Position numbers and translations under genes: made by a program | Part shown: positions 3,198 to 38,440 of the stretch, one piece after another | How positions within the stretch are numbered: position 1 is the stretch's first letter | Layout of the letters: every line of letters begins with the position of its first letter | Notes under the pieces: generated by a model | Database searches by the model: none | What the model saw: the letters and a program-made list of their open reading frames with translations, nothing else | Told to the model about the DNA's origin: nothing | Source of the DNA: Algoriphagus antarcticus | Lineage (GTDB): Bacteria > Bacteroidota > Bacteroidia > Cytophagales > Cyclobacteriaceae | Direction: 5' to 3' | Assembly: GCF_002150685.1 (NCBI RefSeq) | Contig: NZ_MSSW01000009.1 | Span: forward strand, 111,438-175,437 | DNA length: 64,000 bases

Positions 3198-3264
3198 CTC
3201 CCACCCTACAAGCTGGCTCTTCGCTAAAATGATCCAAAGGGATCATTTCTTAACGCTCAGCCCT
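3198..3264. repeat. 67-bp palindromic element, copy 1
   Basis: Inserted in RHS B precisely between the codons for YNGKE and ANGHLGVN: removing 67 bases restores a continuous reading frame. The inner stem AAATGATCC / GGATCATTT is flanked by outer blocks CTGGCTCTTCGCTA and TTAACGCTCAGCCCT. It also carries a 15-base extension (CTCCCACCCTACAAG) shared only with the copy at 38375. Confidence 0.75.
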
Positions 3265-3533
3265 CTCCTTGCCGTTGTATAAATACGGATTTATTTTGAT
3301 ACCGCCATACTGGTAACCTAATCCAGAAAGCTCCACTCCCCATGGATCGTAATGGGTTTCCTGTACGATAAGTGGTCCAGTGCTGAGAATCCTAAACTGG
3401 TCAAATCATACATCGTCAGAAGTCTCCTTGACCAAGTAGGTTTCAATGTACCCGTCCTTTGGAACTGCAATCTTTTTGATCAGTTCCTCGTTTTTGTTTC
3501 TTGCCTTTTTGGATAGGATTTCCTGCGCACGGC

Positions 3534-3584
3534 CTGGCTCTTCGCTAAAACAGTCCACTTGACTGTTTCTTTACGCTCAGCCCT
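3534..3584. repeat. 51-bp palindromic element, copy 2
   Basis: Same outer blocks as the copy at 3198, but a different inner stem (AAACAGTC / GACTGTTT). Removing 51 bases rejoins the RHS codons to read YEQGRAQEILSKK. The insert carries stop codons in the RHS frame. Confidence 0.75.
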
Positions 3585-3612
3585 CCTGCTCATACAAGGT
3601 AGAGTCAGCATT

Positions 3613-3642
3613 CCCGATATCGCTGTGCTCATCGGGACAGGC
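3613..3642. repeat. CCCGAT..ATCGGGACAGGC palindrome in RHS B
   Basis: CCCGAT and ATCGGG arms are followed by ACAGGC. The element separates RHS codons for ALY and NADSTLYE on the minus strand. A related element is at 4910-4938. Confidence 0.65.
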
Positions 3643-3791
3643 AATACAGCGCATGCCCCATATGTGCCTATGACACCGGCCCCGATAAAAATCGGGGGTT
3701 GTAACTCTGTAATCACCAGTGCTACTACATTGGCGATGGTGATTTCGTTGATTCCTGCCGTACTTAGGTTCTGACCGTATTCAGTGAGCTG

Positions 3792-3816
3792 CTGGATCAT
3801 TAAAAGAATGATCCAG
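3792..3816. repeat. perfect 10-bp inverted repeat inside RHS B
   Basis: CTGGATCATT and AATGATCCAG are separated by five bases. Comparison with fragment C (GMDKKLIQQLTEYG) shows this stretch is extra sequence within the codons for KLIQQL. Confidence 0.65.
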
Positions 3817-3842
3817 CTACTTGTCCTCATTTTTACAAAAAT

Positions 3843-4121
3843 CTAAATTTTACTCTTTAAAAAACTTTCCATTTCAGACAGATATTTATCGATTTCTTCA
3901 ATTGCTTTATCATCGCCATTTGTCGAATAAAAAATTTCTAATGGAGTCCAATAGTTATACCATTGCAAAATGAGGCTTTCATCTTGAAATTCTCCTGCAT
4001 CTAAGTAACCTTCTAATCCATATATAAAATCAGAAAAGAGTAAGGTGCCACCACTTCTGTAGCTCTCTATGGATTTAAGCATTTTAATCCAAAGCTTTTT
4101 TTGAAGTTTATTAAATTCCAT
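3843..4121 (-). CDS. candidate immunity protein of RHS tip A
   Basis: The product is a small acidic protein of 92 residues without signal peptide or membrane segment, starting two bases after the RHS tip stop at 4124, so it is translationally coupled. The composition (rich in Tyr, Trp, Glu and Lys, with segments LQWYNYWTPLEIFYS and EIDKYLSEMESFLKS) and the length fit immunity proteins of polymorphic toxin systems, but I recognise no named family. The role is inferred from position and size. The next RHS fragment (B) begins only a few bases downstream, which is the arrangement expected when old tip/immunity pairs are displaced behind a new one. Confidence 0.65.
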   Translation of the reverse strand: MEFNKLQKKLWIKMLKSIESYRSGGTLLFSDFIYGLEGYLDAGEFQDESLILQWYNYWTPLEIFYSTNGDDKAIEEIDKYLSEMESFLKSKI

Positions 4122-4123
4122 AT

Positions 4124-5003
4124 TTAATTTCCAATTTTTATAACAGAAATTACCCTTGTAGCTGCAGGGTTTGTGATAACTCTGACATTTTCAAAAGTTC
4201 TTACTACTTCTGCGGCAGTATTTCCAGGTGTAACATTACCATACTTAATAGCATTTTCAACCACAGATGGTGGAATTCCACGACTAAATGAATTTGCACC
4301 TTTCATAATTGTTCCAACAGGTTGCATTCTTTCTAATGCGTGAGTTGTATATTCTATTCCATTGATAACGGTCCTACCACCACTGGCAGATGGCCAAATA
4401 CTTATTCCATTCTTCGCAGCATTAAATATGCTCCTAGCATTTTTTAAAACACTCCAAAAGTTTTTAATATTACTCCATCCTCCAATTCCTCCTGGAAGAA
4501 ATGGAGGAGTTCCTCCAATCACTCGGGGTTCGTTTATGATATAACTTTCCCCATTATTCTGTCCTTGCCTGAAGTCGTGCCACCCTGATTGTGACCTCTG
4601 GTTATCCGAATAAATTCCTGAAAAATTAGGTAAGCGGGTCGCAGTAACAGTCACTCCTTCTAAATCAACTGTAGGACATCCTTCACAAGCACCTCCTGGT
4701 GCACTCTCCTCCCCATTCAACACACTCTTCTGCGTTGGATCCTCAGCATCAGGTGGTCCTTGAGTCACCCCACCCATCACCTCATACGGCTCCATGCCAT
4801 CAGGATCGATATATCTCAGCGGATTATTGAATGCATAGTTATATGGAGAATGTCGGCGCATCTTCTCTGCCATCGGATCTAACACAAACCACCTACCGAT
4901 CGCCGGATTCCCGATACGCTTCGCTATCGGGACAGGCTGTACAATCTTGCCCCGTAGTCATATAGATTTACTCCAAAATGGCCGTTTGCCTCCTTGCCAT
5001 TAA
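4124..5003 (-). pseudogene. orphan RHS tip A with DUF4258-like toxin domain, 5' disrupted
   Basis: Homology starts about 5003 ([21 protein letters not shown]), is broken by a palindromic insert at 4910-4938 that shifts the frame, then resumes as [17 protein letters not shown] and continues to [16 protein letters not shown]. The C-terminal 80 residues ([38 protein letters not shown]) resemble DUF4258/BrnT-like small nuclease-type domains found at RHS and CdiA tips. That is family resemblance by eye only. An open frame of 253 codons survives from 4885 but lacks the core start. No N-terminal RHS barrel exists upstream; the next 250 bases are AT-rich and noncoding. So it is an orphan tip, probably silent unless recombined. 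Confidence 0.75.
4910..4938. repeat. CCCGATA..TATCGGGACAGGCT palindrome in RHS A
   Basis: A 29-base insert between RHS codons for ARLY and NPAIGRW. Arms CCCGATA and TATCGGG, tail ACAGGCT. It shifts the frame and introduces a stop. Removing it restores the RHS reading frame. Confidence 0.7.
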
Positions 5004-5181
5004 TACAAATATTTATTTTTAGTAAAAAATACTAAAAGCATTTATTTTTACTAATTGATCACAAATTCTCGATATAAATTTATTTAAGAAAATTTCAAAT
5101 GCACTCTACCTATCAAGATGTAGTATAAAAAAATATGATCAAAAAATATGGGGATTGGAAAAAAGAAGAAAACCTCATTAA

Positions 5182-5225
5182 AACAAGCCTAAAACAATCT
5201 TTAATAGCATTGAATTAGGCTTGTT
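5182..5225. terminator. inverted repeat downstream of topA, copy of 914-957
   Basis: AACAAGCCTA / TAGGCTTGTT arms, 25 bases after the topA stop in the topA direction, so it could serve as a terminator although no long T-run follows. The loop still encodes the first residues of the gene at 942 (MLLKIVLGLF, then stop). The sequence therefore looks like a duplicated start region of the carboxypeptidase-like gene. Confidence 0.55.
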
Positions 5226-5250
5226 CATATAGTCTTAAATAAAGCTCGAC

Positions 5251-7578
5251 TTACTTTTTCTTGGCAAACTTTCCGCCCTTTTTCTTAGGTTCCGGCTGAT
5301 TTTCAATGATTTCAATAGTCTGTTTGTACGTTAAAGTTTCAGCTTCCTTATCCTTAGGGATTTTATAATTATTCTTACCCATCTTGATGTAAGGCCCCCA
5401 TCGCCCATTCAATACTTGGATCTCAGGATTCTCTTCAAAGGATTTGATATGCTTCTTGGCATCGGCCTCCCGCTTTTCCTTGATCAACTGGATCGCTTCT
5501 TCTTCATTGATGCTCAGCGGATCCATTTCCTTAGGAAGAGAGAAAAAAGCGCTATCATGACGAACATAAGGCCCAAATCTACCAATCGCTGCCACCATCT
5601 TTTTATCCTCAAACATCCCGATATCACGAGGCAATTTGAATAGCTCAAGTGCATCTTCCATGGTGATATTTTCGATGAACTGGCCTTTTTTCAAACTTGC
5701 AAACTGCTTCTCCTCATCTTCAGAATCACCGATCTGAACCAATGGCCCAAATTTTCCAAGTCTGGCGATCATCGGCTTGCCACTCACTGGGTGGTTGCCA
5801 AGTTCACGGTTTGAATTGATATCCTGTCTGGAGATCTGGTCTGTATCTTCTACATTTTTGTGAAAATCACCGTAGAATGAATCCAGCATATCCTGCCAAA
5901 CTTGTCCTCCTGAAGCGATATCATCAAACTCCTTCTCTACCCTAGCGGTAAAGCTAAAGTCAATCACATTTGGAAAATGCTCCACCAAGAAGTCATTGAC
6001 TACCATTGCAATATTGGTAGGGAAAAGCTTTTGCTTCTCAGCTCCAGTGGTTTCTGTTTTGGTAGCATCTTTAAATGCTCCCTTGGCAATGATCATTTCC
6101 ACATAATCTCTCGGAGTGCCATCTCTGGATTCTTTGATCACGTATTCACGTCTTTGAATCGTCGAAATAGTAGGTGCATAAGTTGATGGACGACCGATTC
6201 CCAGTTCCTCTAACTTCTTCACCAACGATGCTTCAGTATATCTCGGGGAAGCTCTGGAGAAAGTCTCACGGCCTTTCATTTCTTGAAGAGCTAGACTCTG
6301 ACCGATAGTCAATGGTGGCAGGAGTGCCTTACCCTCATTGCTTTCATCTTCTTCAGGCTCATCATCTGTGTCTTCCAAATATACTTTTAGGAAACCATCA
6401 AACTTGATGATCTCTCCAGTGGCGACTAAATTTTGAGTCTGGTTGGAAATATCTACCGTAATAATAGTCTTCTCCAATTCTGCATCAGCCATCTGCGAAG
6501 CAATAGCGCGCTTCCAGATTAGCTCATAAAGGCGCTGCTCATTGCGTTCTCCAATAACTTGCGGATTGGCAAATTCAGTAGGTCGAATGGCTTCGTGAGC
6601 CTCCTGAGCACCTTCAGATTTGGTTGTAAATTTTCTCGATTTATGATATTTATCACCGTATGAATCGTGAATAGCATTTTTGGCAGAAGCCATAGCGTCA
6701 TCCGAAAGATTCACACTATCTGTTCTCATGTAGGTAATCTTACCAGCTTCATACAGTTTCTGCGCTACAGACATCGTCTGAGCTACGGAGAAGTAAAGCT
6801 TTCTACTTGCTTCCTGCTGAAGAGTAGAAGTGGTAAAAGGTGCAGCTGGAGTTTTCTTCCCTGGCTTTTTCTCTAAGTTGGCTACCGAAAAATCAGCATC
6901 AAGACACTTCTTCAAGAATTCCTCAGCTTCAGCTTTGGTGTCAAATTTCTTTGGAAGTTCGGCTTGGAATGTTTTTCCTTCTACTTCGAAAATCGCTGTG
7001 ATTCTAAAACTAGACTTAGCATTGTGCTTTTCTATTTCCCGCTCACGATCTACGATCAGGCGAACGGCAACAGACTGAACTCTTCCTGCAGAAAGACCAG
7101 TTTTGATTTTCTTCCAAAGTATAGGAGAAAGTTCAAACCCTACCAGACGATCTAAAATTCGTCTTGCTTGCTGGGCATTTACCAGATCTATATCTATGCC
7201 TCTAGGGTTCTCAATCGCTTTCGTAATCGCATTTTTGGTGATCTCCCGAAATACAATCCGTTTGGTATTTTCATCCTTAAGCTTCAATACTTCTTTTAAA
7301 TGCCAAGAAATTGCCTCTCCCTCGCGGTCATCATCGCTTGCTAGATAGACCATCTCAGCATCCTTCACCAAAGCCTTGAGATTCTTGATCACATCCTTTT
7401 TATCGGCCGTGACCTCGTAGGTAGGATTGAATCTGTTTTTAATATCGATCGCTTTATCGCCTTTAGGCAGATCCCGTACGTGACCGTAGCTGGATGCTAC
7501 CTTATAGTCCTTGCCCAAGTATCCCTCAATGGTTTTGGCTTTGGCAGGTGACTCGACGATAACAAGGTTTTTAGACAT
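5251..7578 (-). CDS. topA: DNA topoisomerase I
   Basis: Type IA topoisomerase of 775 residues that relaxes negative supercoils through a Tyr-DNA intermediate. The chosen ATG (7578) gives MSKNLVIVESPAKAKTIEGY, the invariant TOPRIM start; an upstream in-frame ATG would add 29 residues unlike the family. Visible landmarks are the TOPRIM acidic motif SDDDREGEAISWHL, the RRILDRLVGFELSPILWKK block, and the active-site Tyr in GKITYMRTDS with SEGAQEAHEAIRPT after it. GIGRPSTYAPTISTIQRR follows. The C-terminus has repeated GRFGPYV / GRWGPYI modules instead of Cys4 zinc fingers and a basic tail (KKKGGKFAKKK), as is usual in Bacteroidota. It stands as a single gene ending at the 5182 inverted repeat. 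Confidence 0.97.
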   Translation of the reverse strand: MSKNLVIVESPAKAKTIEGYLGKDYKVASSYGHVRDLPKGDKAIDIKNRFNPTYEVTADKKDVIKNLKALVKDAEMVYLASDDDREGEAISWHLKEVLKLKDENTKRIVFREITKNAITKAIENPRGIDIDLVNAQQARRILDRLVGFELSPILWKKIKTGLSAGRVQSVAVRLIVDREREIEKHNAKSSFRITAIFEVEGKTFQAELPKKFDTKAEAEEFLKKCLDADFSVANLEKKPGKKTPAAPFTTSTLQQEASRKLYFSVAQTMSVAQKLYEAGKITYMRTDSVNLSDDAMASAKNAIHDSYGDKYHKSRKFTTKSEGAQEAHEAIRPTEFANPQVIGERNEQRLYELIWKRAIASQMADAELEKTIITVDISNQTQNLVATGEIIKFDGFLKVYLEDTDDEPEEDESNEGKALLPPLTIGQSLALQEMKGRETFSRASPRYTEASLVKKLEELGIGRPSTYAPTISTIQRREYVIKESRDGTPRDYVEMIIAKGAFKDATKTETTGAEKQKLFPTNIAMVVNDFLVEHFPNVIDFSFTARVEKEFDDIASGGQVWQDMLDSFYGDFHKNVEDTDQISRQDINSNRELGNHPVSGKPMIARLGKFGPLVQIGDSEDEEKQFASLKKGQFIENITMEDALELFKLPRDIGMFEDKKMVAAIGRFGPYVRHDSAFFSLPKEMDPLSINEEEAIQLIKEKREADAKKHIKSFEENPEIQVLNGRWGPYIKMGKNNYKIPKDKEAETLTYKQTIEIIENQPEPKKKGGKFAKKK

Positions 7579-7732
7579 AAATGGCAATATTTCTGGGTTT
7601 TCATTCCCGTTTAGAAAAGCTAAAAATAGACGGCATTGTTTTCTCGTCCAAATAATTAAAATCAACTAAACCTGATTTGGAGGGATTATTGATCAATGTA
7701 AGAAATACTATACAGGGTATAAACCACTTATC

Positions 7733-8200
7733 ATGAAGCAATTGTTTTTACTCAGACACGGAGAAGCAGGTTTTTCTCAAGGTTCAGATTTTCAAAGACA
7801 ACTCACCGAAAAAGGTAGAGAAAACTTGGTTCGTATGGGAAAAAGCCTAGATAAAAAGCTAAAATCTGTTGATTTGATGTATTGTTCCACAGCGCAACGT
7901 ACGATGGAAACTGCTGATTTGATAGGAAAGTACATTACAATTAAGGAGAGTATGTTCACAAAAGTTATCTATCACGGCGATATGGGAGACATGATAGCGC
8001 TACTGGAAAAAACTTCCTCCTCGGTGGATTCTTGTCTTTTGGTCGGGCACAATCCTACCATTAGTCTGCTTTTGGCACATCTTTCGGATGAGAATTACCT
8101 AGGATTGCAACCTGGTATGATGGCTGTGATTGACTTGGAAATTTCGGAATGGAAAATGATTGGCTTTGGAACAGGCATCTTAAAAGAGATTATCCAATAA
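7733..8200 (+). CDS. sixA: SixA-like histidine phosphatase family protein
   Basis: 155-residue member of the histidine phosphatase (phosphoglycerate mutase-like) superfamily. The RHG catalytic motif is at residues 8-10 (LLRHGEAG). It is followed by QLTEKGRENL, the substrate-side STAQRTMETADLI and the second catalytic His in LLVGHNPTISLL. The length and spacing fit SixA-type phosphohistidine phosphatases; the symbol is tentative because closely related proteins can act on other phosphoesters. The protein is cytoplasmic with no signal peptide. It is divergent from topA with 154 bases between the starts. Confidence 0.85.
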   Translation: MKQLFLLRHGEAGFSQGSDFQRQLTEKGRENLVRMGKSLDKKLKSVDLMYCSTAQRTMETADLIGKYITIKESMFTKVIYHGDMGDMIALLEKTSSSVDSCLLVGHNPTISLLLAHLSDENYLGLQPGMMAVIDLEISEWKMIGFGTGILKEIIQ

Positions 8201-8684
8201 AGTAAATCACATAGAGAGTATGCAACAGAATTATAAACCACTTTTCTAACTTTTATCAAAAATATCTTTAGACTCATCGAATTATAAACCCAACTTCCTT
8301 TATATTGGCATAATAATTCAGATAGAAGCAGAGATTATCAATCACCAAAGTCAATCTTAGCTATTTCTGCAGTTATAAATTCTAGCACATACTTTCAAAA
8401 TCCGGAAACTTACCCCGAAGCCTAGCCCAAAATATTCGAATGAATCCATTGCCATGGGACCAAAATTTGATTTCAAATCAAATGGCTAAATCATTCAGTA
8501 CCCTTTAAAGAATACATACCCAAATTGTGATTACCCTATTTAATTGCTAGCATTAAAACTTAGCGATTTCTGAGAAGTCTAAGATGCCTTATTCATAAAG
8601 CATCTAGATTAAATGTAGCGTCAAATGAATGTCAGAAGGAAAACAGCCTTGTCAATTACCAGAAGCACAATTGATATTAAATGC
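8201..8684. other. intergenic, no gene seen
   Basis: About 480 bases after the phosphatase gene with only short, frame-broken open stretches. No tRNA or protein homology is recognisable. Confidence 0.5.
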
Positions 8685-8719
8685 AAAAAGCCCTGAATTT
8701 TTATATTCAGGGCTTTTTA
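8685..8719. terminator. bidirectional intrinsic terminator
   Basis: AAAAAGCCCTGAA and TTCAGGGCTTTTT form a GC-containing stem with an A/T-rich loop, with A-tract and T-tract on the two sides. It lies just after the minus-strand DUF1080 gene. Confidence 0.85.
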
Positions 8720-8736
8720 ATGCTCTTTTACTTTTC

Positions 8737-9510
8737 TTAGAAATCTGTCGATTTACCATCAAGATCAAGCTTTTTGATCCAGATATTTCGATAGAACACA
8801 TCATGTCCTTCCGCTTGCAACTTTAAACCGCCCGGCGTATCGGTAATCCCTTTTCCACCGTCATTGCCGCCATCAAGACCCGAGTATGGTCCACCCCAAA
8901 CTTGCTGAATCTCCTTGTCCTCATGGATTTTCACTCCATTCAAATAGACTGTAGCCCTAGGCTTCTCTACTAATTTCCCATTTTCAAAACGTGCTGCTTT
9001 AAACTCAATATCATAAGCATTCCACTTTCCAATGCCATAATATTCTTCCGAGGTTGGAACATGTTCATTGATCAATGCAGCTAAGCCATGATCACCGTAG
9101 TCTCCATCCAAAATTTGAATTTCATAGCGATTTTGAAGATACACCCCTGAATTCCCGCCTTCATTTTTGACAAAAAACTCTACGTGCGCACGAAAATCCT
9201 CGAATTTGTCTTTGGTCACGATATCAGCGGCACCATATAAACCTCCAGCTCCTGCAGGATCATTGCTGCTAATTGCTTTGCCGCTATCTACAGGATCAGC
9301 CACTTCAGGCCATTTGATAGGATTTTCAGCAGAAAAACGTGGTCCTTCCCAGTATTCCCAATTTTTCTCCAGTGATTTCTTTGAGCCGTCCAGATAGACC
9401 TTGGCTCCTTTTTCGGGCTTAGCCCCTACGCCTGTTTGAGCTTGTACGACTGTAAATGCACACGCTAAGGCAAAGGAGAAAGCTAGTCTTTGAAAAACTT
9501 TACTGTTCAT
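8737..9510 (-). CDS. secreted DUF1080 (3-keto-disaccharide hydrolase-like) protein
   Basis: 257 residues with an N-terminal signal peptide ending at AFTVVQA|Q, so it is probably periplasmic. The rest is one DUF1080 concanavalin-like jelly-roll. Typical blocks are FEDFRAHVEFFVKNEGGNSG, GVYLQNRYEIQILD, WNAYDIEFKAARFENGK, ATVYLNGVKIHED and the final GLKLQAEGHDVFYRNIWIK. Some members of the family hydrolyse 3-keto-glucosides; the substrate here cannot be told from sequence. It stands alone, divergent from the metallopeptidase gene at 9608, and ends at the bidirectional terminator. The ATG at 9510 fits the signal peptide start. Confidence 0.88.
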   Translation of the reverse strand: MNSKVFQRLAFSFALACAFTVVQAQTGVGAKPEKGAKVYLDGSKKSLEKNWEYWEGPRFSAENPIKWPEVADPVDSGKAISSNDPAGAGGLYGAADIVTKDKFEDFRAHVEFFVKNEGGNSGVYLQNRYEIQILDGDYGDHGLAALINEHVPTSEEYYGIGKWNAYDIEFKAARFENGKLVEKPRATVYLNGVKIHEDKEIQQVWGGPYSGLDGGNDGGKGITDTPGGLKLQAEGHDVFYRNIWIKKLDLDGKSTDF

Positions 9511-9607
9511 AGGTTTTTGAGTTAAATTATTTTTTTGAAATTAAATATAAGACAATATCCAATTGTTGAATTTGGTTAATTTTAGGCAAAATCAAACATT
9601 TTGTACC

Positions 9608-10507
9608 ATGAAATGGGAAGGAAGAAGACGAAGCTCAAATGTAGAGGATAGACGGGGTCAAAGTAGTGGTGGATCGCGGGGTGGTGGATTTAGCCCTATG
9701 CTAATTGGGCCGTTGATTAGAATTCTTTTTTCTAAAACAGGCTTAATTATCGTGGGTATCGTCATTGCCATCTCGGTGATCACGGGTACCAACCCCCTTA
9801 CCTTCTTAGGGAATTTCATGGGTGGCGGTGGACAGGGATTTACTACTGAGACTAACTATACTCCTACTGCTGAGGAAGATCGCCTCGCTGCTTTCAGTGA
9901 GACCATTTTGGCGGACACGGAAGATGTCTGGAACAATCTTTTGGAGAATTACAGAGAACCAACGCTTGTACTATTCAGTGGACAAGTTTCTTCTGCATGT
10001 GGACTAGCATCCAGCGCTACAGGACCTTTCTATTGTCCAAGTGATGAAAAACTTTACATAGACCTGAGCTTTTTTGAAGAAATGGAAGTGAAACTGCAAG
10101 CCCCGGGAGACTTTGCTCAAGCCTATGTAATCGCACATGAAGTGGGACACCATATTCAAAAAATCATGGGAATCACTGATGAAATGGCCAAACTTCGTTC
10201 ACAGGTGAGCGAGAAAGAATACAATCAGTATTCTGTGAGATTGGAACTTCAGGCAGACTTCTTAGCGGGAATCTGGGCCAATCACAGCCAAAAATCAGTC
10301 GGTTGGATGGAAAAGGGAGATTTGGATGAAGCACTAAATGCCGCAAATGCTATCGGCGATGATCGTCTCCAGAAGCAATCCAGTGGTCGCGTGATCCCTG
10401 ACTCCTTCACTCACGGCACATCAGCACAGCGAATGAAATGGTTTAAAAAAGGTTTTGAAACTGGAGATATCAATCAGGGAGACACATTCAATGCCTCTAA
10501 TCTGTAA
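9608..10507 (+). CDS. ypfJ: YpfJ-type neutral zinc metallopeptidase
   Basis: Putative neutral zinc metallopeptidase of 299 residues from the ATG at 9608 (MKWEGRRRSSNVEDRRGQ), the canonical family start. A 15-codon upstream extension is ignored. One membrane anchor lies around residues 45-65 (IGPLIRILFSKTGLIIVGIV). The catalytic zinc motif HEVGHHIQ is near residue 178, with the third ligand likely in ELQADFLAGIWANHS. The CGLASSATGPFYCPSDEKLY block is diagnostic. The enzyme is expected to face the periplasm; physiological substrates are unknown. The family name derives from E. coli YpfJ. Confidence 0.92.
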   Translation: MKWEGRRRSSNVEDRRGQSSGGSRGGGFSPMLIGPLIRILFSKTGLIIVGIVIAISVITGTNPLTFLGNFMGGGGQGFTTETNYTPTAEEDRLAAFSETILADTEDVWNNLLENYREPTLVLFSGQVSSACGLASSATGPFYCPSDEKLYIDLSFFEEMEVKLQAPGDFAQAYVIAHEVGHHIQKIMGITDEMAKLRSQVSEKEYNQYSVRLELQADFLAGIWANHSQKSVGWMEKGDLDEALNAANAIGDDRLQKQSSGRVIPDSFTHGTSAQRMKWFKKGFETGDINQGDTFNASNL

Positions 10508-10513
10508 GCCAAC

Positions 10514-29602: not shown

Positions 29603-29681
29603 AAGCTTTGAAAGCAAAATACGAGATTTTCAAAACAGTCTTTACAGGTAGTTATTAACTTCAAAAACAACAACAGAAATC

Positions 29682-29996
29682 ATGAAAATTCAAATTAATA
29701 CTGGTAAAAATTTAAGTGTCCATGAAGAATATGGAAATGAGTTGGAAGCTTCTTTGTCAGAAAATTTAAGTAGATTTAGTGAGCACATTACAAGACTCGA
29801 AGTGCATCTTTCAGATGAGAATGGAAACAAAGAATCGGAGGATGATAAAAAGTGTCTGATTGAAGCAAGGATGGAAGGAAGACAACCAATTGCGGTTTCA
29901 GCCACAGGCAATACTTACGACCAAGCCGTAAACAGCGCAACTGGTAAGCTTAAGGCATCTCTTGATACAATCATCGGTAAGTTGAGAAATCACTGA
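29682..29996 (+). CDS. HPF/RaiA-family ribosome-associated protein
   Basis: 104 residues, one beta-alpha-beta-beta-beta-alpha domain of the ribosome hibernation/sigma-54 modulation (S30EA) family: MKIQINTGKNLSVHEEYG, LSRFSEHITRLEVHLSDENG, CLIEARMEGRQPIAVSATGN, AVNSATGKLKASLDTIIGKL. These proteins bind the decoding centre and silence ribosomes during starvation. This short type without the long C-terminal extension is often found, as here, in stress islands beside P-type ATPases. It could be a second copy besides a housekeeping HPF. Confidence 0.85.
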   Translation: MKIQINTGKNLSVHEEYGNELEASLSENLSRFSEHITRLEVHLSDENGNKESEDDKKCLIEARMEGRQPIAVSATGNTYDQAVNSATGKLKASLDTIIGKLRNH

Positions 29997-30195
29997 GCAG
30001 TATTGCTGTGAAACAAGATCCTATGGAATGATGCCAGTGGCATCATTCCATTTACAAAACAGAATAATTGAAGTAAATCCAAATTTAGCTACTATCCCCC
30101 GCTTTTTAGAACTTATGGCTACCCATTGGTATAAATGCAGATAATCAAATCAATTTGTAGAACAGCACACCTATTCATAACAAGCAATTTTTATT

Positions 30196-32706
30196 ATGTC
30201 TGCAAATAACTTCGATATAAAAGGGTTAACCGATGACCAGGTTCTTGACGCGAGAAAAAAGCATGGATATAATCAGTTAGCATATAAGAAGGAAAGTGGA
30301 TTTTTTGGTGCGATAAAAAGCATCGCAAAAGAGCCCATGGTCATTTTACTCTTGGTCGCTGCGTCCATTTATTTCATAAGCGGAAATACTGACGATGGTA
30401 TTTTTATGGCTTTCGCGATTGTCTTGGTAGCGGGTATTTCGCTATATCAGGATTCCAGAAGTCGAAATGCTCTGGAGAAATTAAAAGACTTAACTAAACC
30501 CATCTCCAAAGTAATCCGCAATGGCGAAATAAAGGAGGTCAAAAGTGAGGAGCTAGTATTCGGTGATAGCCTCATGATCGAAGAGGGAACTGCCATTGCA
30601 GCAGATGGAAAAATTATTCAATCCAATGATTTTTCGGTGGACGAATCCATTCTGACAGGTGAATCCTTATCGGTTTATAAAGATGTCGCAGACGATAAAA
30701 ATCAAGTATTCAGAGGAACTACCGTTGCCAGCGGATTGGCTATCATTACCATCACAGCGATTGGAAATGAAACAAAACTCGGGAAAATAGGCAAAAGCCT
30801 CGAGACGATCCAAGAGGAAAAGACGCCCTTAGAACTGCAGATCAACAATTTTGTAAAGAAAATGGTGATTGTAGGAGTTGTCGTCTTCTTCATTGTCTGG
30901 GGCATAAACTATTTTCAGTCCTACAGTTTTTCCGATAGTTTGATCAAAGCGCTTACCCTTGCGATGAGTATTTTACCTGAGGAGATTCCAGTCGCTTTTA
31001 CTACGTTTATGGCTCTTGGTGCTTGGCGTTTGATGAAAATGGGAATCATCGTCAAGCAGATGAAAACTGTAGAAACCTTGGGTAGCGCAACCGTTATCTG
31101 CACGGATAAGACAGGCACCCTCACCGAAAATAGAATGAGTCTGGCAAAAATCTTCACATTGAACTCCGGTGAAGTTTCCAAGCCTGAAACTATTTCAAAT
31201 GACGAAGAAAAAGAGCTGATCAGATTAGCCATGTGGGCCAGTGAGCCTATTCCTTTTGACCCAATGGAAATAGCCCTTCACGAAGTTTATGGAAATACGT
31301 TTGAATCGGACGAAAGACCCAATTTCAAACTGGTTCATGAATATCCATTAGGAGGAAAGCCTCCCATGATGACCCATGTCTTTGAAGACTCCACTGGTAA
31401 GCGAATCATCTCTGCCAAAGGAGCTCCGGAAGCGATGATCAAGGTGTCTGATTTAAGTGCTGCCCAAAAAAAGCAGGTAAATGATGCTTTGGCCGAACTC
31501 ACGAGTGAGGGTTATCGAGTGCTCGGCGTGGGAGAAGCAAATTTTGGGGGCACTGATTATCCTAAAGAGCAGCAGGAGTTCCCTTTTACTTTTAAAGGCG
31601 TTGTTGCGTTTTACGATCCTCCAAAGAAAAATATCACCAAAGTTCTGGAAGACTTTTATACTGCAGGAATTAACGTAAAGATAATTACCGGGGATAACTC
31701 AACAACTACTACCGCAATTGCCAAGCAAGTAGGATTTAAGGGTTTTGAGAAAAGTATTTCCGGAGATGAACTGATGGCTTTATCAGATGAATCCGTTCAA
31801 AAAACAGTCGGAGATATTCAGGTATTTACCAGAATGTTCCCCGAGGCTAAATTGAAAATAATCAATGCCCTAAAGGCCAATAAAGAAATAGTAGCGATGA
31901 TTGGTGATGGGGTGAATGACGGCCCTGCAATTAAAGCGGCCCACATTGGTGTTGCCATGGGAGGCAAAGGAACGGAGATTGCCAAACAGGCTTCTTCTCT
32001 GATTCTAAAGGAAGATGACTTGTCTAAGTTGGTGGATGCCGTAGCCATGGGACGGAAGATTTACACCAACCTCAAAAAAGCAATTCAATACATCATCTCC
32101 ATTCACATCCCGATTATATTGACGGTGTTTCTTCCTTTGGCTTTAGGCTGGCTGTATCCCAATATATTTTCGCCGGTTCATATCATATTTCTGGAGTTGG
32201 TGATGGGACCTACCTGTTCTATTATTTATGAAAATGAGCCGATGGAAAAAAACAGCATGTCTCAAAAACCCCGTGCTTTGACCAGCACTTTTTTCAACCT
32301 GAAAGAACTAACTACCAGTATCATACAAGGTTTAGTCATCACTGCCGGCACCTTATTTATTTACCAATATGCAGTGCATCAAGGTTTAAATGAGGAACTC
32401 ACACGAACGATGGTTTTTACAGTTCTTATTGCTGCCAATATCGTTTTAACTCTCGTTAATCGTTCCTTCTACTATTCTATTCTAACAACAGTGCGATACA
32501 AGAATAACCTAGTACCGTTGATTATCGGCATCACAGTTTTAATTACTGGTCTTCTACTTTATGTAAAACCCTTATCGAGCTTTTTTGACTTTGAACCGCT
32601 GAATTCTTTGCAAATATCAATTGCTATAACGACTGGTTTTGTATCAGTTATTTGGTATGAAGGGGTAAAATGGGGCAAGCGAATCAAGGGAGCTAAAAAG
32701 GTGTAA
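30196..32706 (+). CDS. P2-type cation-transporting ATPase
   Basis: 836 residues, ten-helix P-type ATPase. Actuator motif SVDESILTGESLSV (residues 149-162), TM4 motif LPEEIPVAFTTFMALG (usual PEGLP changed to PEEIP), phosphorylation site CTDKTGTLTENRMSL (Asp near residue 302), KGAPEAM in the nucleotide domain, and hinge MIGDGVNDGPAIKAAHIGVA. The N-terminus (GLTDDQVLDARKKHGYNQL) is a cation-ATPase N domain. Overall closest to Ca2+/cation P2A-type pumps; the ion is not certain, since TM4 PEEIP and TM6 residues differ from SERCA. The final segment TGFVSVIWYEGVKWGKR is a typical cytosolic end. Stands with HPF and OsmC in a stress cluster. Confidence 0.92.
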   Translation: MSANNFDIKGLTDDQVLDARKKHGYNQLAYKKESGFFGAIKSIAKEPMVILLLVAASIYFISGNTDDGIFMAFAIVLVAGISLYQDSRSRNALEKLKDLTKPISKVIRNGEIKEVKSEELVFGDSLMIEEGTAIAADGKIIQSNDFSVDESILTGESLSVYKDVADDKNQVFRGTTVASGLAIITITAIGNETKLGKIGKSLETIQEEKTPLELQINNFVKKMVIVGVVVFFIVWGINYFQSYSFSDSLIKALTLAMSILPEEIPVAFTTFMALGAWRLMKMGIIVKQMKTVETLGSATVICTDKTGTLTENRMSLAKIFTLNSGEVSKPETISNDEEKELIRLAMWASEPIPFDPMEIALHEVYGNTFESDERPNFKLVHEYPLGGKPPMMTHVFEDSTGKRIISAKGAPEAMIKVSDLSAAQKKQVNDALAELTSEGYRVLGVGEANFGGTDYPKEQQEFPFTFKGVVAFYDPPKKNITKVLEDFYTAGINVKIITGDNSTTTTAIAKQVGFKGFEKSISGDELMALSDESVQKTVGDIQVFTRMFPEAKLKIINALKANKEIVAMIGDGVNDGPAIKAAHIGVAMGGKGTEIAKQASSLILKEDDLSKLVDAVAMGRKIYTNLKKAIQYIISIHIPIILTVFLPLALGWLYPNIFSPVHIIFLELVMGPTCSIIYENEPMEKNSMSQKPRALTSTFFNLKELTTSIIQGLVITAGTLFIYQYAVHQGLNEELTRTMVFTVLIAANIVLTLVNRSFYYSILTTVRYKNNLVPLIIGITVLITGLLLYVKPLSSFFDFEPLNSLQISIAITTGFVSVIWYEGVKWGKRIKGAKKV

Positions 32707-33565
32707 TTACATCCGACTACTCTGCGAAATGTATTCTAGGCTAGGTAAAATGAAATGTAGAATCGAAACACGACGAAGAAGTTGTCGAACTTAATGTTTC
32801 AACCCCGATGGGGATGGGATGACAAAAACCATTGATTCGTTTCCCATGGGTTGCACCCATGGCTACTTATGGTTTGATCCCGTTGGGATCATGATTTTAT
32901 ACCATCATATCTCTATTCTTCCCCTTTTATGACCACGAAGTAGTCAAAGCATGAATACCTGCGTGCCGAGGCATAAATCCCGGTGCAACTACGGTTAAGA
33001 ATGAGGGTTCTATATGGCAACCTTGAAATGCCTGCCCGCTGTGGCGGGGGTTGAACTATAGGTGTAAATTCTGATACTAAATCTCCAATTACAAATTGCA
33101 TCTCTACACCAAGAGGACTTCTTATTCTCATCTATCCCATATCTCTTTCCAATCCACCTCTCCCTATTCGCAGTACAAAGTATTTTTAATAAATGAGGCA
33201 GGTTATTAGAAGCCTCATTCTGACAGGATATTGACAAGAGTAGAGATCGCTTTTCCGGTCTATTTGGCACATATCATCCAGGGAGAAGAAGGGACAACCA
33301 AGCCACACAAATGTAGCCTGATCCTCAAGTAGTGATTTTGCAGAGCAATCCCCAAAAAGTGGGATAGATACAATAAACAGGCAGGATTGTGTAACAAGTT
33401 CGGCTTCAGTTTTATAGAACTTTATATTCCAACCTAATGCGGAGGGTTGATTAAAAGGCATTTAGCGTCAAAAAACAAATAATTTAACAAGAACCCGCTT
33501 AAGTGCTTAAAATAACGAGCCTGCCCAAAAAACCTATAGATAATCTACCAATAAATAACAATCAC
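32707..33565. repeat. intergenic region with several palindromic REP-like sequences
   Basis: No gene is supported in 860 bases. It contains CAACCCCGATGGGG (near 32801), CCCATGGGTTGCACCCATGG (near 32847), GATCCCGTTGGGATC (near 32877) and CCCGCTGTGGCGGGGG (near 33034), all short inverted repeats reminiscent of Bacteroidota REP-like units. An open minus-strand stretch at 33186-33461 has no recognisable homology. Confidence 0.5.
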
Positions 33566-33808
33566 ATGAAAAATAACTTGGGGTCAATAGACCGAATGAT
33601 CAGGATAGCATTAGCAATCATTATCTCAGCTTTATACTTTACCCATGTCATTTCAGGCAGTTTAGGTTCGGGTTTAATACTTGTTGTTGGTGTATTATTC
33701 ATCACAAGCTTTTTTAGTTTCTGCCCGTTTTATTCTCTTTTTGGAATAGCAACCAAGAAAAAAACGAAAGCAGTCTTTCTTCCTCAAAGAAAACCTACTG
33801 CCAATTAA
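33566..33808 (+). CDS. DUF2892 (YgaP-like transmembrane) protein
   Basis: 80 residues from ATG 33566 (MKNNLGSIDRMIRIALAIII). The family signature GxxDRxxRxxLA is directly followed by two hydrophobic helices (IALAIIISALYFTHVISG, SGLILVVGVLFITSFFSF) and the conserved CPFYSLFGI. DUF2892 proteins are inner-membrane proteins frequently fused or adjacent to rhodanese or redox genes. The OsmC gene follows 41 bases later, so the two may be an operon. A 21-codon upstream extension was rejected. Confidence 0.85.
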   Translation: MKNNLGSIDRMIRIALAIIISALYFTHVISGSLGSGLILVVGVLFITSFFSFCPFYSLFGIATKKKTKAVFLPQRKPTAN

Positions 33809-33849
33809 ATGATTGAAAGACAAAAGGAACCTTTTACCTAGAAAAATCA

Positions 33850-34317
33850 ATGGAATCACACTATTATAATGTAGGTATAAATTGGGAAAACAGTCGAAAA
33901 GGCATCTTATGTTCTCCTGAATTAAACAAGAAAAACAGCGTTTGCATTGAAGTAGCGACGCCTCCGGAATTCCCCAAAGGAATTGAGGGGGTTTGGTCTC
34001 CTGAGCATTTGTTTGTTGCTGCTATTAGTGGCTGCTTAATGACTACTTTTTTAGCCATTGCAGAAAATTCGACATTGGACTTTACAAGTTTTAGCTGTAA
34101 GACAAAAGGAAAGATGGAAATGGTGGAAGGCAAATTAATGATGAGCGAAATACTGCTTAAACCTACTGTTGTTATCCATAATGAAATGTATAGAGACAAG
34201 GCGATTCGTATTTTGAAAAAAGCTGAAGATGCCTGTTTGATAAGTAATTCCGTGAAGTCAAAAATCACTATGGAAATAAATATTGAGGTGACACCCATGT
34301 TAATCGAAACCAAATAA
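33850..34317 (+). CDS. OsmC family protein
   Basis: 155 residues. OsmC-like fold with the first half SPEHLFVAAISGCLMTTFLA containing the catalytic-type Cys (SGCLM, near residue 62) and the second half around DACLISNSVKSKITMEI with the second Cys (near 137). Paired Cys residues suggest a thiol peroxidase acting on organic hydroperoxides, in the wider OsmC/Ohr/YhfA superfamily. It belongs with the DUF2892 gene upstream. The exact substrate is unknown. Confidence 0.87.
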   Translation: MESHYYNVGINWENSRKGILCSPELNKKNSVCIEVATPPEFPKGIEGVWSPEHLFVAAISGCLMTTFLAIAENSTLDFTSFSCKTKGKMEMVEGKLMMSEILLKPTVVIHNEMYRDKAIRILKKAEDACLISNSVKSKITMEINIEVTPMLIETK

Positions 34318-34805
34318 CCAAGTCACATATCCTTAACATCGGTGGCAATTTTGCCCGGTTAAACACAGCCAGATACACTCATGCTATAGTGAAATTTAAC
34401 AGATATTGCCATCATTGACTGCAATTCCTTGCTCAGCTTCGTGCCGAATATTCCAAAGCGCGTGCTACCAAATGTCAACCTTGCAATTCACCTCTATTTT
34501 AACTTCTAGCCCTTTTTAAAACATGAAGGCATCGAATTATTCAGGCGTAAGTCGCTATGTTTGATACAGGCACGAGAAACTATTTTCACCAACTCAATAC
34601 TCAATGGACATGCAGTTCATCCTTTTTTGCAAGATCAAGTAGGATTATCTGTTGATAGCATTAGTCAATCGTTTGTGGCATGCGAAATAAAATGGGTAGG
34701 AAGAAAATGGTTATAGCTTCTCCCGTGTATTTCTGGTAAATCGCTTAAGGGCTTACTTATACTAGGACTATAATGGATGGATCAATAGACTTTAAAAGCA
34801 CCACT
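34318..34805. other. intergenic, possible gene debris
   Basis: No intact gene. Around 34520-34715 one plus-strand frame gives a run containing ARETIFTNSILNGHAVHPFL and ending IKWVGRKWL, with stops in all frames nearby. It could be debris of a lost gene, but I recognise no family. Confidence 0.35.
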
Positions 34806-37214
34806 ATGAAACAGATTAAGAATTTTTCAGAAATACGTCTAAAAGACATTGCACTCGTAGGAGGTAAAAATTCTTCCCTGGGAGAAATGTTTTCAGAACT
34901 TTCTTCCAAAGGCATTAAAGTGCCCGACGGGTTCGCAGTGACAAGTGATGGATATTGGAGTTTTCTAAATGAAAACGAACTCGTACCTAAACTCACGGCT
35001 ATTCTTTCAGAATTGGACCTCAAAACATTTAATAACCTTTCAGAGATTGGCTCAAGAGCCAGACAACTTCTGCTGGATGCTTCATTTCCAAAAGATTTAA
35101 GTGATGAGATTTTAGCTTCATACAAGCACTTGGAAAAGCGTGCTGGAAGTACCGTTTCTTTAGCCGTGCGCAGCAGTGCTACAGCCGAGGATTTACCCAA
35201 TGCAAGTTTTGCCGGACAGCAGGAATCCTACCTCAATGTGCAGGGAGCCGAAAATCTAATTTTTGCATGCCACCGTTGCTATGCTTCACTTTTTACAGAC
35301 AGAGCCATAAAGTATCGAGTTGACAATGGTTTTGATCACATGAAAGTGGCCTTATCTATTGGGATTCAGATTATGGTCCGGTCCGATAAAGCCTGTGCCG
35401 GTGTCATGTTTACACTTGATCCGGATACGGGATTTGATAAGGTAGCTCTTGTTTCAGGTGCTTGGGGACTTGGTGAAAATGTGGTCCAGGGAAGTGTGAA
35501 CACCGATGAGTTTCTGGTATATAAATCGTTTATCGGAAAAGTAAAGCAACCCATCATCTCAAGAATATTGGGTAGCAAAGTGAAAACAATGGTCTATGCT
35601 GATAAAAAATTAGAAGAGATTTCAAAGCCAGAAGATGCCATCATCAATTTGGATACATCAGATGAAAACAGACAAAAGTACATACTCACCGATGATGAAG
35701 TAGTTCAACTGACTGAATGGGCGATCCTTCTTCAAGCGCATTACGAGCGTCATATGGACATTGAGTGGGCAAAAGATGGTGACACGAATGAAATATTTAT
35801 CGTTCAGGCTAGACCAGAAACAGTTCACAGCCAGAATGAAAACAAGAGTCAATTCAAAGAATATCAAATCAAGGAAAAGGGGGAATTAATCTGTCAGGGA
35901 ATTGGATTAGGAAACCGGATTACCTCTGGTATTGCAAGACTATTGGACTCACCAAAAGATATTGATAAGCTTAATGTGGGCGAAATTTTGGTGACTGGAC
36001 GAACTGATCCTGACTGGGATCCCATACTCAAAAAAGCTGCGGGCATCGTGACTGATCAAGGGGGAAGAACTTCACATGCGGCTATTGTAGCTCGTGAAGT
36101 AGGTGCAGTCGCTATTGTGGGAACCGGTGATGCTACCAAAACTATTAAGGATGGTCAACTCGTGACCATCTCCACTGCTGAAGGGGACACGGGTTTTGTC
36201 TATGAAGGTAAAGGCACTTGGGACGAGCAAGAGATTGACACCTCTAAAATTGAAATGCCAAAAACGAAGATTATGCTCATTCTTGCAGATCCCGATAAGG
36301 CATTCCGATATTCGCTGTTCCCAAATAATGGCGTAGGGCTGATGCGAATGGAATTTATTATCAACAATACAATTAAGATTCACCCGATGGCTTTGCATCA
36401 TTTTGATCAGCTAAAAGATAAAGCAGTAATAAAAGAAATTGAAAACCTGAGCCACCATTATCCCGACAAAAAAGACTATTTCATTCACAAACTGGCAGAG
36501 GCCACTGCAACGATTGCTGCGGCTTTTTATCCTAAAGATGTCATAGTAAGAATGAGTGACTTTAAATCAAATGAGTACGCCGGACTGCTTGGCGGTGACA
36601 CATTTGAACCTGTGGAGCAAAACCCAATGATCGGTTTCAGAGGGGCGTCGCGATATTATCATCCATTGTATAAGGATGCGTTTGTGATGGAATGCGAAGC
36701 GATGAAAATGGTGCGGGATGAAATGGGTTTTACCAATATCAAACTGATGCTGCCATTTGTACGAACCATCAAAGAAGCCACCAATGTAATTGCGATCATG
36801 AAGGAAAATGGATTGGTAAGAGGTGAAAAAAATCTGGAATTGTATATGATGCTGGAAATTCCAAGCAATGCCTTGCTGGCGGAAGAATTTGCCAAACATT
36901 TTGATGGCTTCTCCATCGGGTCAAATGACCTGACTCAATTAACACTTGGTGCTGACCGGGATTCGGAATTGCTCAGCGACATCTTTTCTCCCTTTGATCC
37001 AGCGGTGATGCAATTGATCAGCATGGCGGTCACCAAAGCAAAAGCTGAGGGTGTCAAAATTGGTTTATGTGGACAGGCACCAAGTGATTACCCGGAGTAT
37101 TCCCAGTTTCTTGTTGATTGTGGAATTGATAGTATTTCCTTCAACCCGGATGCGTTGATAAAAGGAATTTCCAATATGCATGAGGCGGAAAGTAAAAAGT
37201 TACCTGCAAGCTGA
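34806..37214 (+). CDS. ppsA: phosphoenolpyruvate synthase
   Basis: 802 residues from ATG 34806 (MKQIKNFSEIRLKDIALVGG); the ATG at 34773 would add 11 unmatched residues. N-terminal ATP-grasp PEP/pyruvate-binding domain (GGKNSSLGEMFSELSSKGIK, RSSATAEDLPNASFAGQQES). Swivelling phosphohistidine domain with GGRTSHAAIVAREVGAVAIV, the His being the phosphorylated residue. C-terminal TIM barrel with LPFVRTIKEATNVIAIMKEN, IGSNDLTQLTLGADRDSEL and the catalytic Cys in KIGLCGQAPSDYPEY. It converts pyruvate and ATP to PEP, AMP and phosphate. Sitting near an N-ATPase and an acetate kinase remnant it fits a fermentative/energy-stress island. Confidence 0.93.
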   Translation: MKQIKNFSEIRLKDIALVGGKNSSLGEMFSELSSKGIKVPDGFAVTSDGYWSFLNENELVPKLTAILSELDLKTFNNLSEIGSRARQLLLDASFPKDLSDEILASYKHLEKRAGSTVSLAVRSSATAEDLPNASFAGQQESYLNVQGAENLIFACHRCYASLFTDRAIKYRVDNGFDHMKVALSIGIQIMVRSDKACAGVMFTLDPDTGFDKVALVSGAWGLGENVVQGSVNTDEFLVYKSFIGKVKQPIISRILGSKVKTMVYADKKLEEISKPEDAIINLDTSDENRQKYILTDDEVVQLTEWAILLQAHYERHMDIEWAKDGDTNEIFIVQARPETVHSQNENKSQFKEYQIKEKGELICQGIGLGNRITSGIARLLDSPKDIDKLNVGEILVTGRTDPDWDPILKKAAGIVTDQGGRTSHAAIVAREVGAVAIVGTGDATKTIKDGQLVTISTAEGDTGFVYEGKGTWDEQEIDTSKIEMPKTKIMLILADPDKAFRYSLFPNNGVGLMRMEFIINNTIKIHPMALHHFDQLKDKAVIKEIENLSHHYPDKKDYFIHKLAEATATIAAAFYPKDVIVRMSDFKSNEYAGLLGGDTFEPVEQNPMIGFRGASRYYHPLYKDAFVMECEAMKMVRDEMGFTNIKLMLPFVRTIKEATNVIAIMKENGLVRGEKNLELYMMLEIPSNALLAEEFAKHFDGFSIGSNDLTQLTLGADRDSELLSDIFSPFDPAVMQLISMAVTKAKAEGVKIGLCGQAPSDYPEYSQFLVDCGIDSISFNPDALIKGISNMHEAESKKLPAS

Positions 37215-37223
37215 AACAAACTA

Positions 37224-37868
37224 ATGACTGCTAAAGAATTTATTGAAACTTTAAAGATAATCGGTCAAGATTATTCGGGAGAAATTCCGAAAAGGGAGAT
37301 ATTTTCTTTAGCAAAAGAATATCAGCAAATTCCAGTATTTGAGGTTGTAAAATTGCTTAAAGATAAAGATGATAATCATCGACTTGGAGCAGTATCTATA
37401 TTAGATTGGAAAGCCCGAAATAAGAAAACTTCTAAAGCGGAACGACAAAACATATACAGAGCGTATATTGATAATCATAAATGGATTGATAATTGGGGTT
37501 TGGTAGATAGAAGTGCACCATATGTAGTTGGAGGATACTTACACGACAAGGACAAAAAAGCATTATATGATTTAGCAAAGTCCAAAAATCCAATGGAGCG
37601 AAGAACTGCAATTGTAAGCACTTATTATTTTATCAAAAAAAATGAAATAGAAGACACATTTAAAATTGCAGAAATTCTTGTAAACGACAAAGACGAATAT
37701 GTACAAAAGGCTGTTGGGAGTTGGATTAGAGAAGCAGGAAAAAAGGATGAAGAAAAATTAAAAAAATTTCTTGATAAACACGCAACTGAAATGCCAAGAA
37801 TTTCACTTCGATACGCAATTGAGAAATTCGACAAGGAAACGAGAGAATATTACTTGAATTTAAAGTGA
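37224..37868 (+). CDS. AlkD-like DNA alkylation repair protein
   Basis: 214 residues, all-helical HEAT-like repeats as in AlkD: KLLKDKDDNHRLGAVSILDW, NIYRAYIDNHKWIDNWGLVD (the conserved W-x-x-V-D containing the catalytic Asp), KALYDLAKSKNPMERRTAIV, KAVGSWIREAGKKDEEKLKK and EMPRISLRYAIEKF. The family excises bulky or cationic alkylpurines. Strong Lys/AT bias relative to ppsA suggests separate acquisition. Starts 9 bases after ppsA, but the group II intron scar begins 23 bases after its stop. Confidence 0.88.
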   Translation: MTAKEFIETLKIIGQDYSGEIPKREIFSLAKEYQQIPVFEVVKLLKDKDDNHRLGAVSILDWKARNKKTSKAERQNIYRAYIDNHKWIDNWGLVDRSAPYVVGGYLHDKDKKALYDLAKSKNPMERRTAIVSTYYFIKKNEIEDTFKIAEILVNDKDEYVQKAVGSWIREAGKKDEEKLKKFLDKHATEMPRISLRYAIEKFDKETREYYLNLK

Positions 37869-37972
37869 CAGGTGGAAAAGCCAGCAGGTAGTCGAGTAGA
37901 CGGCCTCGCCAGTTTTCTCAAGCGAGGTGCGCCTCTCACACCACTGCCAATAGCTATCAGCATACGGGTCTT

Positions 37973-37995
37973 CCCGATAAAAATCGGGACAGGCT
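37973..37995. repeat. CCCGATA..TCGGGACAGGCTG palindrome
   Basis: CCCGAT and ATCGGG arms around AAAA, with the ACAGGCTG tail. Same family as 3613-3642 and 4910-4938, here splitting the GTATAC / GACCCGTATG region of the intron-like remnant. Confidence 0.65.
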
Positions 37996-38175
37996 GTATA
38001 CGGAGGTTCACTGGATTGTAGGTTGTGCCCGCCTGAATGACTAGTCGGACCGGTTTTGAGGTAATAAGATAGCATAGATTCATACCCCTTACGTCTCAGG
38101 CGTGACAAAGTAATAGTGGTTATCAAAATCGGACTCTGGGCTACGGCCCATCCCCCTTTCCTGCCTTCCCGCAGC

Positions 38176-38226
38176 CTGGCCCTTCGCTAAAAATGTCCAC
38201 TGGACATTTTCTTAAAGCTCAGTCCT
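38176..38226. repeat. 51-bp palindromic element, copy 3
   Basis: Outer blocks CTGGCCCTTCGCTAAAA and TTTCTTAAAGCTCAGTCCT, inner stem AATGTCCA / TGGACATT. Same organisation as 3534-3584 with a different, still perfectly paired stem. Confidence 0.7.
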
Positions 38227-38374
38227 TCCATGCGTAGGCATGGTCTTGATCCACTCCCAGTCTGATTAGGTTTTTACGTTTCCGCTTAGGCTTCTTCTCC
38301 CGATATTGTTATGGCTCGTTCCTCATAGCTACTATGACCTCGGCTGACTTCTCTCAGATGTTCACGACATCTAT

Positions 38375-38440
38375 CTCCCACCCTACAAGCTGGCCCAGTG
38401 CTAAAAATATCCACTGGATATTTTTCTTACGCACTGCGCT
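38375..38440. repeat. 66-bp palindromic element, copy 4
   Basis: Shares the 5' extension CTCCCACCCTACAAG with the copy at 3198. Inner stem AATATCCA / TGGATATT; the outer stem has also changed, to CAGTGC / GCACTG. Confidence 0.7.

Follow-up and report, generated by a model that had tools for sequence, protein, structure and literature searches.

A dispersed family of 64-65-base hairpins in Bacteroidota, probably mobile as single-stranded DNA

Introduction

The best-known small palindromic repeats of bacteria are spread by the REP-associated tyrosine transposases, RAYT or TnpA-REP. A repetitive extragenic palindrome (REP) of a RAYT is defined by the tetranucleotide GT[AG]G, placed 5' of the foot of its hairpin, and genes of TnpA-REP subclass 2.6, found in Bacteroidetes, are described as adjoined by "atypical secondary structures" (PMC6006769). 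The same source reports that the IS200/IS605 elements IS608 and ISDra2 prefer the lagging-strand template and that it is the folded strand which is recognised (PMC6006769). Palindromic elements can also lie within reading frames: the Rickettsia palindromic elements (RPE) are about 150 bp long and sit in frame inside unrelated genes (PMC10969869). Here we describe a family of short hairpins first noticed as four palindromes in a 64,000-nucleotide stretch of the Algoriphagus antarcticus genome (contig NZ_MSSW01000009.1, positions 111,438 to 175,437 of the forward strand), which we call the window.

These hairpins are probably a mobile non-coding element of 64-65 bases that enters the lagging-strand template as single-stranded DNA and takes the place of about seven target bases. 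At least one genome with many copies gave no match to the enzyme that spreads the best-known repeats. The family also offers a measurable insertion signature in culturable Bacteroidota, consisting of near-fixed ends, about seven lost bases, a target motif and a replication strand. Any complete Bacteroidota genome allows the replication-strand and empty-site comparisons to be run again, which makes the mechanism testable. If our reading is correct, the hairpins exemplify a mode of transposition by replacement instead of duplication.

Results and Discussion

The window palindromes belong to a dispersed family

All four palindromes described in a first-pass annotation of the window were present at the places it gave, with common outer blocks and four different inner stems; the outer stem of the fourth is CAGTGC/GCACTG and fully paired, as it had reported. 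Its sizes of 51-67 bp had to be revised. Alignment with relatives extends the unit by a 13-nucleotide block, CCYNCCCYRCANS, which precedes CTGGC in most family copies, and because this block belongs to the conserved unit, all four copies measure 64-65 bp. A 15-base extension that had been assigned to copies 1 and 4 is indeed present in both, but is merely one version of the same block. The four copies are:

3200..3264, minus strand: copy 1, 65 bp, in an RHS-associated gene; minus-strand start AGGGCTGAGCG, tail CTTGTAGGGTGGG
3521..3584, minus strand: copy 2, 64 bp, in the same RHS-associated gene region as copy 1; diverged tail GCCGTGCGCAGGA
38163..38226, minus strand: copy 3, 64 bp, on the domain IV side of a degraded group II intron; empty intron relatives exist
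38377..38440, minus strand: copy 4, 64 bp, flanked in that intron by domain I and a domain-III-like stretch; a paired outer stem replaces the G.A motif

Each of these folds better than its shuffled versions (z -2.5 to -4.3), and an exact family pattern matched two of the four, against none in 100 shuffled windows.

The annotation had taken the palindromes for a dispersed family and had named two outcomes that would speak against this, namely no further copies, or RHS orthologues in which the same bases are ordinary coding sequence. Covariance-model searches instead returned many more copies in the same genome and in relatives, and natural empty sites were found. A first model, built from five copies, gave 13 copies in the 5.88-Mb genome of A. 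antarcticus (E <= 0.01) and detected the family in 45 of the 98 genomes searched, that one included (E <= 0.1). A second model, which was built from 60 copies and included the tail, was applied to five selected genomes and found 55, 56, 47, 74 and 4 copies; these genomes include the high-copy G037 (55), G014 (56) and G091 (74). The second model was also run on a phylum-wide draw under stricter filters, where matches at E <= 1e-6 occurred in 9 of 395 genomes, again including that of A. antarcticus. A scan of 84,980 species' genomes with the exact pattern returned 84 stretches, and the 80 listed were all Bacteroidota by title. Their carriers, with genus placements that we partly presume, include Algoriphagus, Cecembia, Belliella, Lunatimonas, Pleomorphovibrio, Maribacter, Flavobacterium and metagenome-assembled genomes of Bacteroidales. 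The family thus comprises hundreds of copies across Bacteroidota, and the four copies in the window are members of a real, dispersed family.

At one locus (L073:8207-8464), four elements form a tandem array with a 69-bp period. Carriage by phage was considered and set aside, as one scan of viral contigs gave no match to the exact pattern. No description of the family was found in the literature searched, in which subscription journals are weakly covered.

The strand that carries G.A pairs probably folds

The 64-65-bp element consists of a hairpin followed by a 13-nucleotide tail, which lies 3' on the presumed folded strand. Both stems covary strongly, which bears out the earlier view that pairing is conserved while the sequence changes. 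Among 60 distinct copies, 14 of 15 pairs vary on both sides, paired cells amount to 84% against 67% when shuffled, and the covariation score is 0.455, compared with 0.134 when shuffled and at most 0.134 with slid partners.

The outer stem contains a two-base internal loop, which reads TC/TC on the plus strand and, on the opposite one, forms a tandem G.A. Full Watson-Crick pairing takes its place in some copies (window copy 4, L080 and L117, by eye). The tandem GA/GA is kept in 160 of the 205 elements (from a total of 256) that could be read by our parser, and in the same 205 one further position holds A.G in 112, G.A in 76, A.A in 5, G.G in 5 and something else in 7, so that 188 of the 198 purine pairs at this swapping position are A.G or G.A. 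The strand with the G.A pairs, which corresponds to the minus-strand reading, is probably the folded form, because the conserved mismatches are G.A pairs there and one of them swaps A.G for G.A. Of the two strands, this one also folds with the lower predicted energy: under DNA parameters in 232 of 250 copies, under RNA parameters in 237 of 250.

One copy in Rhodonellum (L147:1141-1213) has a 5' arm that is a perfect 29-nucleotide complement of its 3' arm, compared with a 10-nucleotide perfect stem in its sister at 5909. It is likely a natural example of arm-templated copying, and such copying seems to happen in the family. The covariation is better explained by selection on shape, because arm copying would erase the G.A positions and would not generate swaps between non-Watson-Crick pairs.

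Insertion usually replaces target bases

The flanks of 256 distinct elements were searched separately for relatives lacking the element; 85 yielded a candidate, and 53 comparisons remained after removal of duplicates. The target had lost 6-9 nucleotides in 30 of these 53 and 5-14 in 37, while the net length change was +54 to +59 at 34 sites, in any frame. Judging from these alignments, the element appears as a rule to replace target bases rather than to duplicate them. A target duplication (GGAG/GGTG) at RHS sites, which had been an impression from a few sites, was superseded by the loss seen in the comparisons. One group II intron family provides a ready-made comparison, because seven of its positions exist both with the element and naturally empty; at one of them the empty form reads GC-GGACAGG-GTTAAC, and in the filled form the element stands in place of GGACAGG. 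Within the window, 7 nucleotides were lost at copy 2, 8 at copy 3 and 6 at copy 4.

A target motif, RGN^GNANA, emerges from the 43 empty sites that passed a gap filter of 4-14 nucleotides, some of which are a single position of the intron taken from different lineages. In the lost stretch, position 1 is G in 34 sites, position 3 is A in 32 and position 5 is A in 25. The ends of the element itself are nearly constant. On the minus-strand reading, it begins with AGGRC (first base A in 223 of 256 elements, the next two G in 244 and 248), and its 3' tail ends in GGGNRGG.

These ends bear most directly on an explanation that requires no dedicated enzyme. In enzyme-free template switching, the polymerase would quit the lagging template, copy an element elsewhere and return about seven bases further on, so that the family would be spread by host replication. 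The loss of few target bases agrees with this, as do the lagging-template orientation and the lack of a linked enzyme among the loci described below, and the L147 copy, with its perfect 29-nucleotide arm complement against the 10-nucleotide stem of its sister, also counts in its favour. Random switching would, however, leave ragged ends, whereas the first three bases are close to fixed and the target carries a motif. We regard template switching as unlikely, though not far-fetched.

A symmetric search of the 256 elements revealed seven copies nested within other copies, all in the orientation of the host copy and none opposite. By eye, six of the seven begin in the apical loop of the host and one begins two bases past it. 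These cases and one intron loop had suggested that hairpin loops are the target; this was rejected, as 11 of the 43 empty sites lie in loops, against 26.5% expected. Targeting of tRNA genes was also dropped: such genes occur in 5 of 10 loci that had been picked for tRNA-like flanks or oddities, with no common insertion point by eye. At L191:6240-6680, three consecutive elements stand by a tRNA-Glu gene, each between pieces that by eye resemble tRNA-Glu fragments.

Orientation follows the lagging-strand template

We sampled GC skew in four one-contig genomes (G037, G021, G009 and G033), with the G-rich strand taken as leading, as is conventional, and with origin and terminus placed by eye; a further one-contig genome, G068, with a single copy, was left out. 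The presumed folded strand is the lagging-strand template in 78 of 83 copies and in 32 of 34 clusters. By genome, the counts are 43/46 in G037 (from 55 copies found), 22/23 in G021, 8/9 in G009 and 5/5 in G033. In G037, 31 of the 34 copies away from RHS genes follow this rule, and so do 12 of the 15 non-RHS copies whose nearest or surrounding open reading frame (ORF) is opposite, in a count made by eye on ORFs of 90 aa or more, some of which may be spurious. Across the named loci, orientation fits the local GC skew in 48 of 69, and in 27 of 32 where the skew exceeds 0.05.

Control motifs were counted in the same genomes over 1.1 Mb sampled. GGGNRGG lies on the leading strand in 66% of occurrences (415 to 215) and GGGNAGGG in 67% (68 to 34); the most skewed of 4,359 8-mers reaches 80%, and target availability is 54.5% leading. 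Neither target availability nor the tail motif explains the orientation of the elements. The FtsK orienting polar sequence (KOPS) of E. coli is GGGNAGGG, and the tail resembles it, which invites the idea that insertion is strand-blind and that the G-rich tail GGGNRGG is afterwards selected as a polar motif, like KOPS or Chi. With GGGNAGGG and GGGNRGG far below the 94% of the elements, post-insertion selection is the least credible of the rival explanations, and we give it very little weight.

The orientation relative to genes suggests a different process, in which the RNA of the element would enter transcripts and be returned to DNA by reverse transcription, the element being a reduced relative of a retroelement. 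All 51 RHS-linked copies are sense, and so are 34 of the 36 copies that lie inside a group II intron or reverse transcriptase match or no more than 400 bp from one (19 linked to intron and 15 to reverse transcriptase matches; the two opposite copies lie 230-314 bp from an intron match), although many of these are not independent. The 12 of 15 copies in G037 noted above follow replication and not the gene, and the carriers G091 (84% complete), G044 and G033 gave no RVT_1 match at E <= 1e-5. Furthermore, RVT_1 genes run with replication in five of five cases in three complete genomes, and sense-only copies would be expected anyway because these genes themselves run in that direction; the lagging template may be where introns of this type insert themselves. 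RNA-level insertion therefore seems to us decidedly unlikely.

Candidate partner enzymes

The first-pass annotation had proposed a RAYT-type (Y1) transposase encoded outside the window as the partner, and the search gave no support for this. Genome G014, with its 56 copies, gave no Y1_Tnp match at E <= 1e-5, whereas Y1 matches are present in G026, G030 and G045, where no copy was found. Only one of 33 Y1 loci examined (49 matches listed) has a copy nearby, at about 1.3 kb. No GT[AG]G tag stands 5' of the hairpin foot, as the presumed folded strand begins with AGGRC in a position profile of 256 elements; the other strand carries CCYNCCCYRCA (93 copies).

The family could still be a REP type moved by a TnpA-REP enzyme, perhaps one of the atypical REPs of subclass 2.6. 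A hairpin acting as a single strand and a lagging-template bias like that of IS608-type enzymes would suit such a reading, as would the atypical hairpins that flank the subclass 2.6 genes of Bacteroidetes (PMC6006769). The distribution of Y1 matches, the absence of the tag and the loss of target bases speak against it, and we consider it very improbable. A link between the element and the subclass 2.6 hairpins, which are known here by their description in that source and not by sequence, is likewise unlikely.

A reverse transcriptase was also tried as the partner and rejected. RVT_1 gave no match at E <= 1e-5 in the carriers G091 (84% complete, 74 copies), G044, G033 and G043, and a match is present in G030, where no copy was found. 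When the 1,495 open frames of 80 named loci were clustered, the only neighbours shared by more than six loci were RHS (17) and the group II reverse transcriptase (7).

Proposed insertion mechanism

Single-stranded insertion into the lagging-strand template is thus the reading we prefer. The strand with the G.A pairs would be the active folded form, an enzyme recognising this folded shape would cut and join the hairpin at the replication fork, and the lost target bases would reflect a gap between the joined strand ends. A broader claim is quite possible, though we would stop short of calling it probable: that Bacteroidota harbour a class of minimal mobile DNA, a single-stranded hairpin of 64 bases that is recognised by the shape of its tandem G.A and replaces about seven bases of the lagging template at RGN^GNANA by means of an undescribed enzyme or the replication machinery.

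Several observations weigh against single-stranded insertion as we propose it. No enzyme was found beside the copies examined. Sixteen of the 53 empty-site comparisons fall outside 5-14 nucleotides (tandem arrays, two self-matches, apparent recombinants and a few small gaps), and copy 1 in the window shows no target loss, with a gap of -2 and +67 relative to its relatives. Near-identical pairs with unrelated flanks number only 4 of 1,035 in G037, and mobility is deduced from sequence comparison. Skew samples of the other sign occur in 2 of 15 in G021 and 1 of 10 in G033, among loci of other relatives, local GC skew fits in just 14 of 22 (P = 0.29), and the A. antarcticus loci L092 and L094-L096 contradict the orientation expected from local skew. 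Finally, something tied to the intron itself may orient the intron-linked copies, since 34 of 36 run in the sense direction of the intron, although local skew agrees at only 6 of 11 of these loci.

Hosts of the window copies and neighbouring repeats

The hosts of the four copies and the empty counterpart of copy 2 were located as follows:

1396..1402, minus strand: seven bases, GAAAAGT (minus), in an element-free paralogue at the position of copy 2; matched via the flanks of a relative at the same site (L131:3180)
2448..3185, minus strand: RHS-associated core ORF adjoining copy 1; TIGR03696 (Rhs_assc_core), 47.5 bits against a cut-off of 32.5
38319..38368, minus strand: group II intron stretch, domain-III-like; Rfam RF01998, 27 bits, below the gathering cut-off of 35
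38450..38669, minus strand: domain I of the group II intron that hosts copies 3 and 4; Rfam RF02001, 46.8 bits against a cut-off of 32

Clean insertion into RHS genes, as first described, is correct insofar as copies 1 and 2 lie in RHS-associated stretches (both labelled so by tblastn, with TIGR03696 in the ORF beyond copy 1), but about seven target nucleotides are usually lost. Relative to the empty paralogue at 1396-1402, copy 2 amounts to +64/-7 = +57, a multiple of three; by eye, its in-phase reading runs into a TGA within the element. The ORF at 2448-3185 begins only beyond copy 1. Copy 4 is flanked by the two intron parts detected with Rfam, and copy 3 lies outside both, at a position that is element-free in full-length relatives. 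On the minus-strand reading, each of the four copies runs in the sense direction of its host.

Besides the two elements, the degraded intron (37880-38780, minus) holds further small palindromes; no ORF for a reverse transcriptase was seen in it. A relative of this intron on contig C30 of the same genome has an RVT_1 match, and the full-length relative L176 has a 412-aa open frame with RVT_1 and GIIM and no other Pfam match.

A second, shorter palindrome family, (AG)CCTGTCCCG..CGGGA, occurs in the window at 38597-38620, 38709-38733, 38531-38549, 3680-3697 and 4908-4936, as well as at an intron site and in loops of the main element (L149:1845 and L211); it looks like another mobile hairpin. Repeats at 912-957 and 5180-5225, 93% identical and terminator-like by eye, flank the RHS region, which suggests that this region is a duplicated or mobile block. 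Elsewhere in the window, a long array of repeats based on seven bases (CATCGGTCAT-like, with spacings of 14 and 21) extends over 51573-52249 from the end of the ORF at 49855-51636, and 96-bp tandem repeats at 53896-54130 lie in a long ORF, where methionine- and histidine-rich (MDHSGM) repeats can be seen by eye.

Comparison with known systems

The element shares with miniature inverted-repeat transposable elements (MITEs) that it is small, dispersed and non-autonomous. It differs in lacking a target duplication at most compared sites, with 5-14 nucleotides lost at 37 of 53; no parent transposon was found, although no search by end sequence was made. Like the RPE, it is palindromic and can lie inside reading frames, but it is 64-65 bp long, is inserted in any frame, and is found in RHS genes, in a group II intron and between genes.

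REP and REPIN sequences with their TnpA-REP (RAYT) enzymes resemble it in being short single hairpins with many copies and a single-strand logic. In contrast to these, the element is 64-65 nucleotides long with a 13-nucleotide 3' tail, lacks the GT[AG]G tag, often sits inside genes, entails the loss of target bases, and has no Y1 gene beside the copies examined.

With IS200/IS605 elements, it has in common the lagging-template bias (78 of 83 copies) and perhaps also the reading of a folded strand, but it has neither a transposase nor paired left and right end hairpins. IS608-type elements insert 3' of a fixed tetranucleotide and leave the target complete, whereas the hairpins described here have a loose motif, RGN^GNANA, and 6-9 nucleotides lost in 30 of 53 comparisons. 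The attC sites of integrons have an R-box pair, GTTRRRY/RYYYAAC, at their ends and are served by an integrase. By eye, the element resembles these sites in its folded single strand, its conserved unpaired positions and its variable stem.

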